A program made the position numbers and the translations under genes. Source: Telluribacter humicola (GTDB taxonomy: Bacteria; Bacteroidota; Bacteroidia; Cytophagales; Spirosomataceae). From it: a DNA stretch of 64,000 bases. Shown here one piece after another: positions 3,584 to 49,774 of this stretch. Each line of letters begins with the position of its first letter. The stretch's first letter is position 1. Location: contig NZ_JAFIQT010000004.1 of NCBI RefSeq assembly GCF_017355935.1, positions 1-64,000 on the forward strand, read 5' to 3'. A model generated the notes under the pieces. That model did not search any database, was not told where the DNA came from, and saw only the letters and a list, made by a program, of their open reading frames with translations.

Positions 3584-3803
3584 GGTAGTGGTAAATATTA
3601 AGGTGATTTGGATTTGTTGTAGTAGTTGATAAAGTTGAGGATTCGCCCAAAGTGACTGTCATCTGTTTTGGCAAAAGCTAATGTTTTTCTGGTTAGATGA
3701 GGCTGGCGCTGCCTGAGCGTATTGCGGCCCGCCGCTGCGGTTGAAGCGCTCTATATGAGCGGTGCCACCTGCTTTTTTGGTAGTGTCTATCCGCAGGAAT
3801 GAC
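3584..3803 (-). mobile_element. IS1-family fragment (3' part of transposase)
   Basis: The fragment starts at the IS1 terminal sequence GGTAGTGGTAAATATTAAGG (3584) and contains the last third of the InsB transposase on the minus strand. It matches the intact copy at 38632-39395 from the VIPPDRHYQKAGG region to NFINYYNKSKSP. It is cut off at 3803, where it joins an IS3 remnant. It also has one extra A in an A run (before GCAGG) and one 16-nt hairpin element. It is not functional. Confidence 0.85.
3724..3739 (-). repeat. 16-nt hairpin element A, in IS1 transposase
   Basis: On the gene strand it reads CGCA GCGG CGGG CCGC: leader, stem, loop, stem. Compared with the intact IS1 copy (IERFNNTLRQR, about 38.78 kb), exactly 16 nt are added between the two Asn codons next to the catalytic-Glu motif. 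Element D occupies the same site in another IS1 copy. Confidence 0.85.
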
Positions 3804-3939: not shown

Positions 3940-3955
3940 CCGGGTCGCCGGTGAG
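3940..3955 (-). repeat. 16-nt hairpin element B, in IS3 orfB
   Basis: On the gene strand it reads CTCA CCGG CGAC CCGG. It lies between MKHGFMY and LTAIMDLYSR, just before the second catalytic Asp. Taking out these 16 nt gives TAT-CTG-ACG-GCC and rejoins the frame. It differs from element I at 42504 by one base. Confidence 0.85.
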
Positions 3956-4255: not shown

Positions 4256-4271
4256 CGCTTCGGCGTACCGA
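4256..4271 (+). repeat. 16-nt hairpin element J, in IS3 orfB (antisense)
   Basis: On the plus strand it reads CGCT TCGG CGTA CCGA. It lies in antisense orientation to orfB. Its outer stem pair is T-A instead of G-C or C-G, so pairing is kept. Removing it restores P-T-G-E-K-E-E-N-L-R-L-M. Confidence 0.75.
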
Positions 4272-4381: not shown

Positions 4382-4694
4382 TCATAGACCGGCTTTTTTC
4401 AAGTTTTTTTTTAAATAGTCGTTCTCTACTTGAAGCTGACCGATCTGCTTAAAAAGATTGTCAACGTCAACAGAATCCTCTTCTTTTGAGGATTCATCTC
4501 CGAATGCCTTTTCTGCGCGTTCCAGAAATTCACGCTTCCAGGCCGATACCTGGGTTGGCCGGGTGGCCGGTGCCATGAATTTCAAATCGGGTGGCCAGTT
4601 CGCTCAATGATTCCCGCTCTTTCAAGGCCTCAACAGCCACCATTGCCTTAAATTTCGCTGTAAATTTCCTCCGGCTTTGTTTCATCTTCTTCAT
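4382..4694 (-). pseudogene. IS3 orfA (helix-turn-helix), broken
   Basis: The start region reads MKKMKQSRRKFTAKFKAMV and continues ALKERESLSELATRFEIH, the N-terminal HTH of IS3 OrfA proteins. It is interrupted by a 16-nt hairpin element (4559-4574). In another frame it resumes with PTQVSAWKREFLERAEKAFG and a coiled-coil tail IGQLQVENDYLKKNLKKAGL. In the intact family FEIHPTQVSAWKREFL is continuous, so the 16 nt account exactly for the break. Confidence 0.8.
4559..4574 (-). repeat. 16-nt hairpin element C, in IS3 orfA
   Basis: On the gene strand it reads GGCA CCGG CCAC CCGG. It splits FEIH and PTQVSAW in the HTH region. It differs from element H in a serine recombinase at 37161 by a single leader base. 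Confidence 0.85.
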
Positions 4695-14473: not shown

Positions 14474-14937
14474 ACTATTCTCTTCATATACAGGTAGATA
14501 CTACTGTTAACAAGCCTGTTATTGAAGTGGATGAAATGTACTCTTTTTTGTCGGCAGCAAGCGAATCAAAACTTGGATCTGGTTAGCTATTGAGCGTAAT
14601 AGCAGTCAGATAGTGGGTTTGGCTACTGGCGACCGTAGTGAATACTGTGGACAGCTGTTGTGGGAAAGCTTACCTAAGTTTTACCAACAAAATGCAGTTT
14701 TTTACACTGATCTGTATCCTGTTTATGAAAGTGTTATTCCAGCCGACAGGCATTATCAAAAAGCAGGTGGTACCGCTCATATTGAAAGATTTAATCGCAG
14801 CGGCGACCCGCAATACACTTAGGCAAAGGCAGCCTCATCTAACCAGAAAGACATTAGCCTTTGCTAAGACTGATGACAGTCACTTTGCCAGAACTCTCAA
14901 CTTTATCAATTACTACAATAAATCTAAATCACCTTAA
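14474..14937 (+). pseudogene. insB: IS1 InsB transposase part, broken
   Basis: The sequence runs VIEVDEMYSF, then VGSK-RIKTWIWLAIERNSSQIVGLATGDRSEYC after two surplus T residues (six T instead of four). It continues YTDLYPVYESVIPADRHYQKAGGTAHIERFN, then hairpin element D, then NTLRQRQPHLTRKTLAFAKTDDSHF. The DDE-type catalytic acids are in DEMYSF, TDLYPVY and IERFN. The extra TT plus 16 nt total 18, so the net frame is recovered only after the element. Confidence 0.88.
14796..14811 (+). repeat. 16-nt hairpin element D, in IS1 transposase
   Basis: It reads CGCA GCGG CGAC CCGC and lies between TTTAAT and AATACA, the two Asn codons after IERF. This is exactly the site of element A in the other IS1 remnant. 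The two elements differ at two loop bases. The intact IS1 copy at 38.6 kb lacks it. Confidence 0.9.
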
Positions 14938-16015
14938 TATTTACCACTACCATAATCGGTATAATTATTATTTGAGTAATCTCAAAAAACATTTTCCCAA
15001 ATTCAATGAAAATAAATTCTCCTGCTAATAGCTTCATAAGCGCTGGTGTTAGAACCGGAGCAAGCAGAGTAGCAATGGAGGTTATTGTTATAGAAAGCGG
15101 AACGTTAGCTTTGGCTATAAAGCACATTACATTTGAGGCTAGACCACTGGGAGAACACTCAATTAAAATTACACCGGCAGCAATCTCGGGAGGGAAATTA
15201 AAAAGATAAGCTAACGTAAATCCTAAAAATGGCATAATCACAAATTGACATACAATACCAATTAGTACTGCCCGGGGAGTTTGAATTACGCTCCCAAAAT
15301 CTTTAATGGAAAGGGTAGTGCCCATACCTAGCATGATGAGTTGCAGGAGGGGGATAATTAGGTTCTTTAATTGGAAACCGCCTATTGCTGTAAACGGAGC
15401 AGGAAAAAGGAGGGCTAAAATTACAACAAGAATGATTAAGCAGGTATAAATGAGATTACGCCAGCCAGTGTTACCAATTGTTTTAGCCTCCATATATCAG
15501 AATAGAGTAGAAGATCAGGAATAATTATTTATTGATCCGTGAATTAATCTGTCATAAACGCTATTTCCTTCTTATTGAAGAAGGCCCTTACCAACGCAGG
15601 GGCCTCCTCTAAATGCTTTACTTGTTCAAGAATCGCTGCTGTTAGTCCTTCCAAGTTGGTAAACACCCGATTCTTCAAACTGCCTTTCAGTTGGTTCCAG
15701 ACCAGTTCGACTGGATTAAGCTCCGGACTGTAGGCCGGTAAGCGTTCTAAATGAATTCGACCTGGTCGTTCACGCAGGAACTGCTTCACTGGTTCACTGC
15801 GATGGATAGCTGCACCGTCCCAGATAACTAATAAATCCCGCTTGCGATAGCGTCCACAGAGTTTCTTTAAAAACCAGACGATGTCCTCACCGGTAAAGGC
15901 CTGTTCTTGGCCGGCAACATAAATCCGCCCGTTTGGAGCGACAGCAGCAATCAAGCTTCAATGTGTTCGACCTGCTTGCTCAATGAGAATTGGTGTCTGC
16001 CCACAAGGAGCCCAA

Positions 16016-16030
16016 GCGGCCGCCGCTGCG
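16016..16030 (-). repeat. 15-nt hairpin element E, in-frame variant in IS630
   Basis: On the gene strand it reads CGCA GCGG CGG CCGC. It is element A minus one G of the loop. Because it is 15 nt, it adds five alanines in frame in the first catalytic domain instead of shifting the frame. The canonical spacing LLPxxxxTWAP shows that these codons are extra. Confidence 0.75.
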
Positions 16031-16247
16031 GTCATAGCTAGTAAGGGCAGCAGGTAGCAAGCTGACTCATCTACGTATAAAATCACTCGTCCCTCATCCT
16101 TGGCTTTTTTTAAGCGTTGGGATAATTTCTTGCTGCCACTGAGCAACTGCCTGAGGATCTTGTTGCCGTGCTTTGCGCTGCGGTTTTTGGCGACTCCAGC
16201 CCATCTTTTTCAGAATCCGACCTATCTGAGACGGATCGTAACTTACC

Positions 16248-16263
16248 CGCGGTGGCGGACCAC
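16248..16263 (+). repeat. 16-nt hairpin element F2, in IS630 (antisense)
   Basis: On the plus strand it reads CGCG GTGG CGGA CCAC. It is the only copy with a T-A second stem pair; both partners changed. It splits KLFG and VSYDPSQIG of the transposase. Confidence 0.85.
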
Positions 16264-16283
16264 CCGAATAGCTTCTTGATGAC

Positions 16284-16299
16284 TGCTCCGGCAGCCCGG
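16284..16299 (+). repeat. 16-nt hairpin element F1, in IS630 (antisense)
   Basis: On the plus strand it reads TGCT CCGG CAGC CCGG. It splits RVNE and VIKKLFG, only 20 nt from element F2 in the same orientation. Removing exactly 16 nt gives AAT-GAA-GTC-ATC. Confidence 0.85.
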
Positions 16300-16723
16300 T
16301 TCATTGACACGGAGACGTGTCCAGATAGCCCCGTTGAAGCCATGGTGCTCGGCTCCTTTATTGAGTTCTGCAACTAATTGGTTGAGTTACTCACTTGATA
16401 AGCGAGCGGGTGCTCCAGTCCGCTTGCCTTCTTGCAATGCCATTGCTCCTTGCTGCTGATATTTCTTCAAGGTCCGACTCACCCAAGGTTGCGTCAAGCC
16501 AAATGCTTGAGCAATTGCTGCCTGCCTCCAACCTGCTTCATGGAGCTCGACACAACGTCGGCGCAGGGCTTCATAGTCACTTTGTTTATATCTTGCCATC
16601 AAACCATAAAGAACTCAATATAACAAACTTACTCACGTATCAATAATAAGTGTACGACTTAGCAACTAGTGTACAACTCTATATCATACTGCAAAACGAC
16701 CCTTTTAGTAAACAGGTAAGCAT

Positions 16724-23792: not shown

Positions 23793-24426
23793 ATGCCCCG
23801 GACTATTGCCTATTTACGTGTCTCGACATTAGACCAGGATCTGGAAAAGAACAAGGCCGACATCCTGCACCTGGCCAATGAGAAAAATTTAGGGAAAGTA
23901 GAATTCGTACCGCGGCGGCGGACCGCAAGAGAAGGTGTCAGGTAAGGTTGCATGGCGTAACCGCAAAATTGGCCCGCTCCTAGAAGATTTAAAAAAGGGA
24001 GATGTGATTCTGCTCAGTGAATTCTCCCGGCTGGGAAGATCGATGCTCGAATGCATGGAGATCATTTCCATCGCCATGCAAAAGGGCATCAAGATCTATA
24101 CTGTAAAAGGAGCCTGGCAGCTGGATGAGTCTATACAGAGCAAAGTGATGGCCATGGTTTTCTCGATGGCCTCCGAAATTGAAAGGGACCTGATCAGTAA
24201 GCGCACCAGAGAGTCCCTGGCGGCAAAGAAACTATCCGGAGTAAAACTAGGTCGGCCCACTGGCCCGGGGAAAAGTAAACTCGACCAGTACAGGCCAGAA
24301 ATTGAAGCTTTGCTGCTGAATGGATCGAGTCAGAAGTACATTGCCGACCGCTACCGCATCACGGAAGCCACTCTGTCAAATTGGATGAAGAAGAATGGTA
24401 TCAAAAAATACAAAAGGGCTGCTTGA
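23793..24426 (+). pseudogene. serine recombinase (resolvase/invertase), interrupted
   Basis: The N-terminus MPRTIAYLRVSTLDQDLEKN has the catalytic Ser in the RVST motif. The frame stops after GKVEFV because of a 16-nt element (23911-23926) and resumes in another frame with QEKVSGKVAWRNRKIGPLLEDL. It continues EFSRLGRSMLECMEI (active-site Arg pair) and MASEIERDLISKRT, and ends with a Hin-like HTH, YIADRYRITEATLSNWMKK. Removing 16 nt gives GTA-CAA-GAG and a complete protein of about 205 residues. Nothing else is broken. Confidence 0.88.
23911..23926 (+). repeat. 16-nt hairpin element G, in serine recombinase
   Basis: It reads CGCG GCGG CGGA CCGC and sits between GTAC and AAGAG in the EFVQEKVSG motif. 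It is the only defect in an otherwise complete recombinase gene, which makes it the cleanest test case in the window. Confidence 0.9.
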
Positions 24427-36809: not shown

Positions 36810-36968
36810 ATCCTTATGGTTTATAAGACCGTTTAAATGATAATATCTTGGCCGGTTTGCTCATCAATCCCTGATCGACCTGACCCTTCTTTCTGCCATT
36901 ATTTATATTGCCATGTAATTTAACTAAGTGTATTATATCCGCACTTGTTGAGTTTCATAAACAGTATG
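36810..36968. repeat. 159-bp inverted repeat, right copy
   Basis: This is the inverted partner of 23551-23709. It ends at the start codon of the recombinase gene at 36966, so it includes that gene's promoter and probably a recombination site. Confidence 0.75.
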
Positions 36969-37527
36969 GCATACATAGGATACGCACGAGTCTCCACGAT
37001 GGAGCAGAACTTGAACATGCAGCTGGATGCGCTGCAGAAAGAAGGATGTAGTAAAATCTTTAAGGATAAAGTATCCGGAGTGAAGGCGGGTAAGCCCAAC
37101 CTCGAGAAGCTGATGGAGTATACCCGACCGGGGGATACTATTGTGGTTTGGAAGCTGGATGGCTCCGGCCACCCGGCGGTTGGGAAGAAGTACCATTCAA
37201 CTCATTGAGCTGGTCGAAGAACTAAAGAAGAGAGGAGTAAATTTAAAATCACTCTCTGAGTCTATTGATACCAGCACTGCCACCGGTAACTTGTTCTTTC
37301 AGTTCATGTGTATCCTGGCTGAGCACGAGCGCAACATTATCAGAGAGCGTACTAGGGCTGGACTCGCATCAGCCCGAGCCAAGGGACGCACTGGACGACG
37401 GCCTAAGGGACTTAGTGAGCGCTATTAGAAGATTGCTCCGGAAGTGAGGGCGATTTATGAGCTAAATATACGTAGCACAGAAGCTATAAGAGAGATATTA
37501 CAAATCAAAAGCCAACCTAATAGATAG
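36966..37527 (+). pseudogene. serine recombinase (resolvase/invertase), interrupted
   Basis: The protein reads [20 protein letters not shown] (catalytic Ser), [18 protein letters not shown] and [10 protein letters not shown] 16-nt element (37161-37176) then shifts the frame, which resumes as [40 protein letters not shown] and GRRPKGLSERY. A TAG at 37426-37428 follows, and the frame continues to an HTH-like IRSTEAIREILQIK before TAG at 37525. The hairpin element lies exactly before the active-site RLGRS. Confidence 0.88.
37161..37176 (+). repeat. 16-nt hairpin element H, in serine recombinase
   Basis: It reads GGCT CCGG CCAC CCGG and lies between CTGGAT and CGGTTGG. Taking out the 16 nt restores K-L-D-R-L-G-R-S, one of the most conserved motifs of the family. 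Confidence 0.9.
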
Positions 37528-49204: not shown

Positions 49205-49411
49205 TTCTTATGAAAACGTAAAAAATGCCAGGAGGTCAAAGAGAAAAGAAAAGATGGAGCAAGTAGATCAAATTCAGCCTTTTACCCTCTGCTCTCCTAT
49301 CAACTCCCTGAGTGTCAGGTCTGAAAACCTGCGGGCAAAGATACAAAGGAAAGCGATGTGAAGGTTGTAGAGAAACAAGTTTATCTACTTCTTAACCAGA
49401 TACTTAGAAGT

Positions 49412-49534
49412 GTGTTAGTTTGTGTTACTGGCGTGTTAGCAACGTGTTACTTTGTGTTACTAGCATGTTACTTTGTGTTACTGGCGTGTTACTTTGTGTT
49501 ACTGGCGTGTTACTTTGTGTTAGCAACGTGTTAG
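49412..49534. repeat. phased TGTTA repeat array (iteron-like)
   Basis: About a dozen TGTTA motifs spaced 10-11 bp, organised into 21-bp units of the type GTGTTACTTTGTGTTACTGGC. The spacing places all on one face of the helix. Upstream of mob genes this suggests binding sites for a Rep or Mob protein. Confidence 0.65.
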
Positions 49535-49774
49535 TTTTCCAGGTAAGGAGCTTCAAATTTACAGAAGGGCTAATAAGTACAACTAGGAGATAAAATAAGC
49601 TGCATGCAAAGCCGAGCATTACGCTGAAATAGTTTTCACTTGTTCATCCATTTTTATGGCGGCAACCAGACAAGTGGTTGAATGCTGAATGACAGTTATC
49701 AACAGTAATCATCAAATTGAATCATAGCTCGCACACAGCTGTTATTCGTAGTTTGCCCTACTATGTCTTTATGA

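Follow-up and report, generated by a model that had tools for sequence, protein, structure and literature searches.

The window, i.e. the whole stretch of 64,000 nucleotides of Telluribacter humicola DNA that was analysed, carries an IS630 transposase gene in which three short segments, here called F1, F2 and E, stand out. The question raised by this locus is whether the segments belong to the gene or entered it and, if they entered it, what kind of element they represent and why they are found in a transposase.

Comparison of the IS630 element with an uninterrupted homologue

The gene has the DDE_3 transposase domain of the IS630 family (PF13358; E 1.9e-21, positions 15544-15954) and, in its upstream part, an HTH_23 domain (E 1.9e-9, 16387-16602). 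The element is the sole full-length copy found within its own genome. An uninterrupted copy of 1064 bp is present in a genome of the same genus (L393 in G001) and is identical to the window copy at 938 of 1064 positions. The alignment of the two contains exactly three gaps, of 16, 16 and 15 nt, and no others, indicating that F1, F2 and E are not native codons. The features of the element are:

15530-16640, minus strand: IS630-family element relic with an OrfA helix-turn-helix part and an OrfB DDE_3 part (Pfam matches and end-to-end alignment with the 1064-bp copy in G001)
16284-16299, minus strand: unit F1, CCGG-GCTG-CCGG-AGCA, 16 nt, +1 base G; splits the RVNE/VIKKL region; gap versus G001; 8/8 hairpin pairs
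16248-16263, minus strand: unit F2, GTGG-TCCG-CCAC-CGCG, 16 nt, +1 base G; splits LFG/VSY; gap versus G001; 8/8 hairpin pairs
16016-16030, plus strand: unit E, GCGG-CCG-CCGC-TGCG, 15 nt, in frame (five alanines); splits T/WAPCGQ; gap versus G001; 8/8 hairpin pairs
16105-16111, minus strand: native A7 run at which the frame changes from OrfA to OrfB; identical run in G001, L395, L397, L403 and L406
16387-16389, minus strand: nonsense codon TAA in OrfA (lesion), CAA in G001
15958-15960, minus strand: nonsense codon TGA in OrfB (lesion), TTA in G001

A sequence-only reading of this locus had described F1 and F2 as antisense and 20 nt apart, and E as a sense insert of 15 nt that adds five alanines in frame; the coordinates and the gaps against G001 agree with both descriptions. 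The TAA and TGA codons which it listed are true lesions. It had also counted an extra A as a lesion and proposed that this base together with F1 and F2 adds up to 33 nt and repairs the frame. This part did not hold, as the A7 run is native and occurs in all five other copies that were compared. In the uninterrupted G001 copy, OrfA and OrfB likewise lie in two different frames which meet at this run, an arrangement expected of the IS630 family, and in PMC5009743 IS630 is named among the families that use a frameshift. The sum 16 + 16 + 1 = 33 is therefore a coincidence. Repeated insertion rather than a single event, as had been suggested, is supported by three different units in both orientations, each missing from the same-genus copy, in which the segments are not present as native codons. 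Intermediates with a single element had been proposed as a check, and related IS630 and IS3 copies do contain such inserts, either one at a time or combined differently.

Structure and length of the units

To describe the inserts as a class, IS3 and IS630 copies were aligned, the 36 that reached 70% identity or more were kept, and every gap of 14-16 nt in them was taken by length alone. The 36 copies came from a set of 40 loci (18 IS3 and 22 IS630), which left out more divergent or fragmentary loci. This yielded 61 gaps, 37 of 16 nt, 18 of 14 nt and 6 of 15 nt, the next insertion size in the alignments being 2 nt (n = 9). The gaps thus mostly have frameshifting lengths, with 14 or 16 nt in 55 of the 61.

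A 16-nt insert and the genomic base that follows it (position 17) together make up a 17-nt unit. Its first hairpin joins positions 1-4 to 9-12, and its second joins 6-9 to 14-17. The two hairpins overlap and cannot both form in full. Positions 5 and 13 are unpaired; the 15-nt form lacks one of them and the 14-nt form both. With boundaries free to slide by 3 nt for real inserts and shuffles alike, at least seven of the eight pairs were present in 55 of the 61 gaps compared to 2.6% of shuffled inserts, and all eight in 36 of the 61 compared to 0.18%. The misfits are the six gaps that score below 7/8 pairs and the window unit at 4256, which fits incompletely.

Pairing was also counted over 35 distinct 16-nt units, a set in which 20 rows are manual entries taken from alignments, in some cases at 62-66% identity, and which includes the doubtful L014 and leaves out L131_1, a misfit to the GG core. 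The pair a-a' (positions 1 and 12) was intact in 32 units, b-b' (2 and 11) in 34, X-X' (6 and 17) in 33 and Y-Y' (7 and 16) in 34, each beyond 5000 shuffles. In a set picked by the first hairpin only, 15 of 17 distinct units had an intact X-X' pair; the highest count in 5000 shuffles was 14. On inspection of the unit lists, the tail is mostly NGC followed by G, A or C. Units occur in both orientations and in all three codon phases (8, 23 and 26 events, with gap placement uncertain by 1-2 nt).

Units in the window and in the rest of the genome

The strict double-hairpin motif has eight matches in the window and none with its core read backwards, and all eight fall within mobile genes. The hosts are two IS1-like relics, an IS3 relic, the IS630 and two serine resolvases. 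Outside the IS630 the units are:

3724-3739, plus strand: unit at the ERFN/NTLRQ motif of an IS1-like relic (family by sequence reading); empty site in the same genome at window 38.6 kb, 196/205 identical
3940-3955, plus strand: unit ending in the tail TGAG, in the MYL/TAIMD region of an IS3-family relic (from the sequence and the unit table; no homologue aligned)
4256-4271, minus strand: probable unit in the IS3-family relic, X-X' pair mismatched (no homologue aligned)
4559-4574, plus strand: unit in the IS3-family relic (strict motif; no homologue aligned)
14796-14811, minus strand: unit in the second IS1-like relic, site as at 3724 (gap versus the empty copy)
23911-23926, minus strand: unit in a serine resolvase gene, KVEFV/QEKVSG (net 16-nt gap versus the intact paralogue L298:228-845, PF00239, 524/618 identical)
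37161-37176, minus strand: unit at LD/RLGRS of a second serine resolvase (window 36945-37428; strict motif and ORF reading; no homologue aligned)

The resolvase of L017 has 5' deletions, and L010 is too decayed for a good alignment. A tandem array with units of about 21 nt (GTGTTACTGGCGTGTTACTTT) is located at window 49401-49558.

Searching the T. humicola genome with the 17-nt pattern and at most one mismatch gave 16 places, and the pattern read backwards gave none. By reading of the context, 11 of the places are transposase or resolvase genes or fragments, one is a tRNA-Thr, two lie between genes and two, in uvrA and in a hydrolase gene, are probably native. Several matches were rejected by eye as native or chance, namely C24:89835 (uvrA), C11:1854178 (a SusC-like gene) and those in L351 and L346; L014 (C11:1593840), with one broken pair in a hydrolase-like gene, also looks native. 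The tRNA site (L015, G000:C18, about 150.2 kb) is a tandem tRNA-Thr(GGT) consisting of an intact gene and then a partial second copy, with a 16-nt unit in the T arm, and this arrangement may be the attachment site of an integrated element. At the LDGK-LRG/S motif of an ISAs1-like transposase relic (L348:4512, G000:C11:1104512) a unit was seen by eye. The noncoding end of an IS at C1:113202 holds at least one unit as judged from its sequence, and apparently intergenic stretches of this genome and of several relatives also carry units, so that confinement to mobile genes is not absolute.

Recurrent sites in related IS3 and IS630 copies

The IS3 copy L077 (G000:C8 13149-14547) contains twelve units, and its OrfA and OrfB are fully open at the columns shared with an uninterrupted homologue. 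Related IS3 copies of other species contain subsets of these units at matching places. The cleanest pair is formed by the IS3 copies L375 with no units and L134 with six; over 804 bp their only other differences are 23 substitutions and a gap of 1 nt. Recurrent sites are also seen in the IS630 copies, e.g. 414, 499, 637, 773 and 865. At one given site, different copies can carry the same unit, another hairpin or the opposite orientation; the recurrence of identical units at a site could partly reflect inheritance. Copies without units are common (3 of 13 IS3 and 11 of 22 IS630; 14 of 35 overall).

Units were found in many separate assemblies, including the one-contig genome G164 and a named plasmid. 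The Spirosoma oryzicola plasmid has an IS630 relic in which sites 424 and 773 are occupied by 16-nt inserts and site 548 shows a gap of 19 nt. The IS3 of a Dyadobacter chenhuakuii plasmid is without inserts, and no unit was seen in the plasmid copies of three Hymenobacter, one Rahnella, one Runella and one Spirosoma rhododendri. Among the relatives it is above all G009, assigned to Fibrella because its flanks are identical to those of the named locus L226, that has units in intergenic-looking stretches, sometimes on both arms of a long inverted repeat. Three of these repeats (L113, L118 and L121) have an identical unit on both arms, and in two others (L109 and L117) just one arm has it, as though the two arms were correcting one another.

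Three further observations were made in this material. The IS3 copies L125, L126, L323 and L077 have a unit directly 3' of the A run that ends OrfA, where it might affect frameshifting. Two contigs of G182 (L132 and L324) break off within IS3 at the hot site 705, as they might if copies differ at this site. A possible in-frame unit was noticed by eye in an ordinary gene, encoding an ABC-transporter-like ATPase (L099, G004:C2, about 6291.5 kb).

Insertion sites and targets

Insertion is usually just before GT and less often before AT. At own-genome sites where the search did not fix the second base, T was present at +2 in 18 of 22, and +1 was mostly G and sometimes A; these 22 sites all lie outside the C8 element and come from one listing, other own sites not being in it. 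Sites fetched in relatives have GT at +1 and +2 by construction and, among the matches listed, are mostly high-GC. The training of the target-matrix test took in both kinds of site.

The 13 insert sites in IS3 lie at positions that are more conserved than random ones (0.842 compared to 0.771), a value not reached in any of 5000 draws, and three of the IS3 sites are at what we take to be the catalytic D, D and E motifs. Hairpin loops were considered as targets and rejected (38 unique sites versus positions in the same hosts, Wilcoxon P=0.24). No target duplication was seen in the alignments with empty sites (the IS3 pair L375/L134, the IS1-like relic, the resolvase and the IS630), and a target-duplicating transposon was rejected on this ground. 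The +1 base is sometimes unlike the base of the homologue and then matches the unit, as for F2 compared to G001 and for site 577 in L127 compared to L129. If a unit simply inserted ahead of a fixed base, these cases would not be expected.

Spread between copies and candidate enzymes

Two comparisons with the IS3 copy L129 bear on how units spread. Between L132 and L129, 16 of the 20 substitutions lie between two units (P 3e-12), with 66 of 81 positions identical there and 494 of 495 to the right, indicating that the segment bounded by both units was exchanged and that gene conversion can carry units. Between L127 and L129 no such cluster of substitutions was seen, so that gain of a unit without a long tract also seems to happen.

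When 27 Y1 transposase loci in eight genomes were searched with the strict core, none had units on both sides and one had a single unit nearby; the four own loci had none, and the single unit was at one of the 23 further loci. The RAYT-like genes of the T. humicola genome were rejected as a source, as their flanks by eye hold other palindromes. For L092 and L093 (G000:C18 and C24) these include CCGGTTTGCAACCGG at L093, and they probably belong to an ordinary REP system.

Explanations for the units in transposase genes

We consider the chances about evenly balanced that F1, F2 and E are copies of a tiny hairpin insertion unit which repeatedly and selectively enters transposase and resolvase genes, mostly breaking their frames. 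Such a unit would be a mobile hairpin that travels as a folded single strand and works like REP or IS200/IS605 ends. The putative enzyme that moves it would favour mobile-element DNA, and once present in one copy the unit could pass to other copies by gene conversion. The outcome would be dead or dying transposase genes, the window IS630 being an older case. More tentatively, and with somewhat less than even confidence, we propose that the Cytophagales harbour an undescribed system for writing double-hairpin cassettes of 17 nt into the genes of transposases and resolvases. It would act at fixed conserved sites, place several cassettes in one gene and outpace point mutation, and it would be either a genome defence or an extremely small selfish element parasitic on transposons. 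That the units are concentrated in these genes points either to a new means of disabling mobile DNA or to a parasite of transposons.

A host defence, in effect comparable to repeat-induced mutation in fungi, would recognise transposase DNA by its conserved motifs or repeated copies and write hairpin inserts into it, often several at once. Twelve units in the otherwise intact IS3 copy L077, six units within 23 substitutions in L375/L134, and sites at conserved motifs, among them the three presumed D, D, E sites, agree with such a defence. Several IS families and two resolvases are affected, and the other targets are also repeats (the duplicated tRNA and the long inverted repeats in G009). There is, however, no candidate machinery, twelve inserts are needless for killing a gene, and at least one unit, by reading, lies in the noncoding end of an IS (C1:113202). 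We regard a host defence as unlikely.

The units could also be an ordinary small mobile repeat that lands everywhere and survives where selection is weak, i.e. in dead IS copies. The apparently intergenic copies in the own and related genomes agree with such passive accumulation, and so do the two nonsense codons of the window IS630, which is among the 8 of 21 unit-bearing copies that have stops. Against it, a 400-kb sample of the own genome (of 6.56 Mb) showed no motif excess, with 10 matches as opposed to 16 for the reversed control. In the 36.5 kb of the sample not covered by ORFs of at least 100 codons there was one match compared to three. The corresponding numbers are 10 and 0 for the L077 stretch (2 kb, C8 element) and 9 and 0 for the window. 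The control consists of the same core read backwards and is usable only for motifs with a GG/GCC core; a double hairpin with any core keeps its structure when reversed, which makes the control meaningless for that class (8 versus 8 in the window, 12 versus 12 in the sample). Under the strict double-hairpin rule the sample gave three matches and the control none, and by reading one of the three lies in an ISAs1-like transposase relic and two are native or chance. The remaining 13 of the 21 unit-bearing copies have no in-register stop in 4183 codons despite 30 units; five of them are without any other indel and eight have small ones, several outside the ORFs or ambiguous in the alignment. The units therefore seem to come faster than point decay, chiefly in mobile genes, and an arrival this fast would be visible in intergenic DNA too. 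Passive accumulation is disfavoured, and we rate it slightly below a host defence.

It is rather improbable that the units are silent passengers which are skipped at the RNA level, by removal from the message or by ribosomal bypass, in transposases that still work, as in Magnusiomyces mitochondrial genes. If the interrupted transposases were functional, they would represent a bacterial case of large-scale RNA-level bypass. Frames are open between units, the structure is kept while the sequence varies, and dN/dS of the 12-unit copy is 0.021-0.027 against six of eight others, at dS values (1.4-2.7) near saturation and with two pairs not computable. A general bypass would, however, also allow units in ordinary protein genes, for which the 400 kb sampled showed no excess, with L099 as one possible in-frame case by eye. 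Both orientations and all three codon phases occur, a noncoding site carries a unit, 8 of the 21 unit-bearing copies have stops, and a three-point estimate assigns the branch of the 12-unit copy more amino-acid change than two other branches. An artefact or native codons can be set aside with near certainty, as no supporting point was found and uninterrupted homologues, base-pair covariation and the occurrence of units in many separate assemblies, the one-contig genome G164 and a named plasmid all speak against it.

Comparison with known systems

No description of such units turned up in searches of the open-access PMC library, and we assign the units to no known family. Obeying a strict double-hairpin rule, with clean empty sites and recurrent targets, they would at 14-17 nt be exceptionally small for an insertion unit, and they make the question of how tiny palindromes move directly testable. 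Unlike MITEs, the units show no target-site duplication in the alignments with empty sites. The ends of IS200/IS605 elements form hairpins, make no target duplication and have a short target adjoining the end. The units share these three properties, having a short target beside the unit end, but are without a transposase or an interior. Mitochondrial double-hairpin and GC-cluster elements are short, seemingly mobile GC-rich hairpin inserts, with hairpins side by side and in organelle DNA, whereas the hairpins of the units overlap and are mutually exclusive, and their setting is bacterial.

According to Di Nocera (2013; PMC3733652), REP/RAYT elements, which comprise GTAG- and CGTC-tagged palindromes, are short GC-rich palindromes of 20-40 nt found mainly between genes. 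They resemble the units as short GC-rich palindromic repeats with a hairpin and an unpaired tail, sometimes located in genes and thought to be mobile. The units differ from that description in being 14-17 nt long (net 14, 15 or 16) and in having two overlapping hairpins, and the unit lists contain no GTAG or CGTC tag beside the hairpin. They are concentrated in mobile-element genes (8/8 strict window matches and 11/16 own-genome places) rather than between genes, and they do not flank the examined Y1 genes, whereas in REP systems the repeat also flanks a RAYT gene.

Rickettsia palindromic elements (RPE), as described in that review (PMC3733652), are palindromes inserted into protein genes. The units are likewise palindromes inside protein genes, but compared to this account they are shorter, mostly frameshifting and located in transposases at recurrent sites. 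In Magnusiomyces mitochondrial genes, as presented in PMC5009743, short inserted blocks break the reading frames of otherwise good genes. The units are similarly short, frame-breaking inserts in otherwise good genes; unlike the blocks reported there, they are bacterial, occur in both orientations and show no excess in the sampled ordinary genes.
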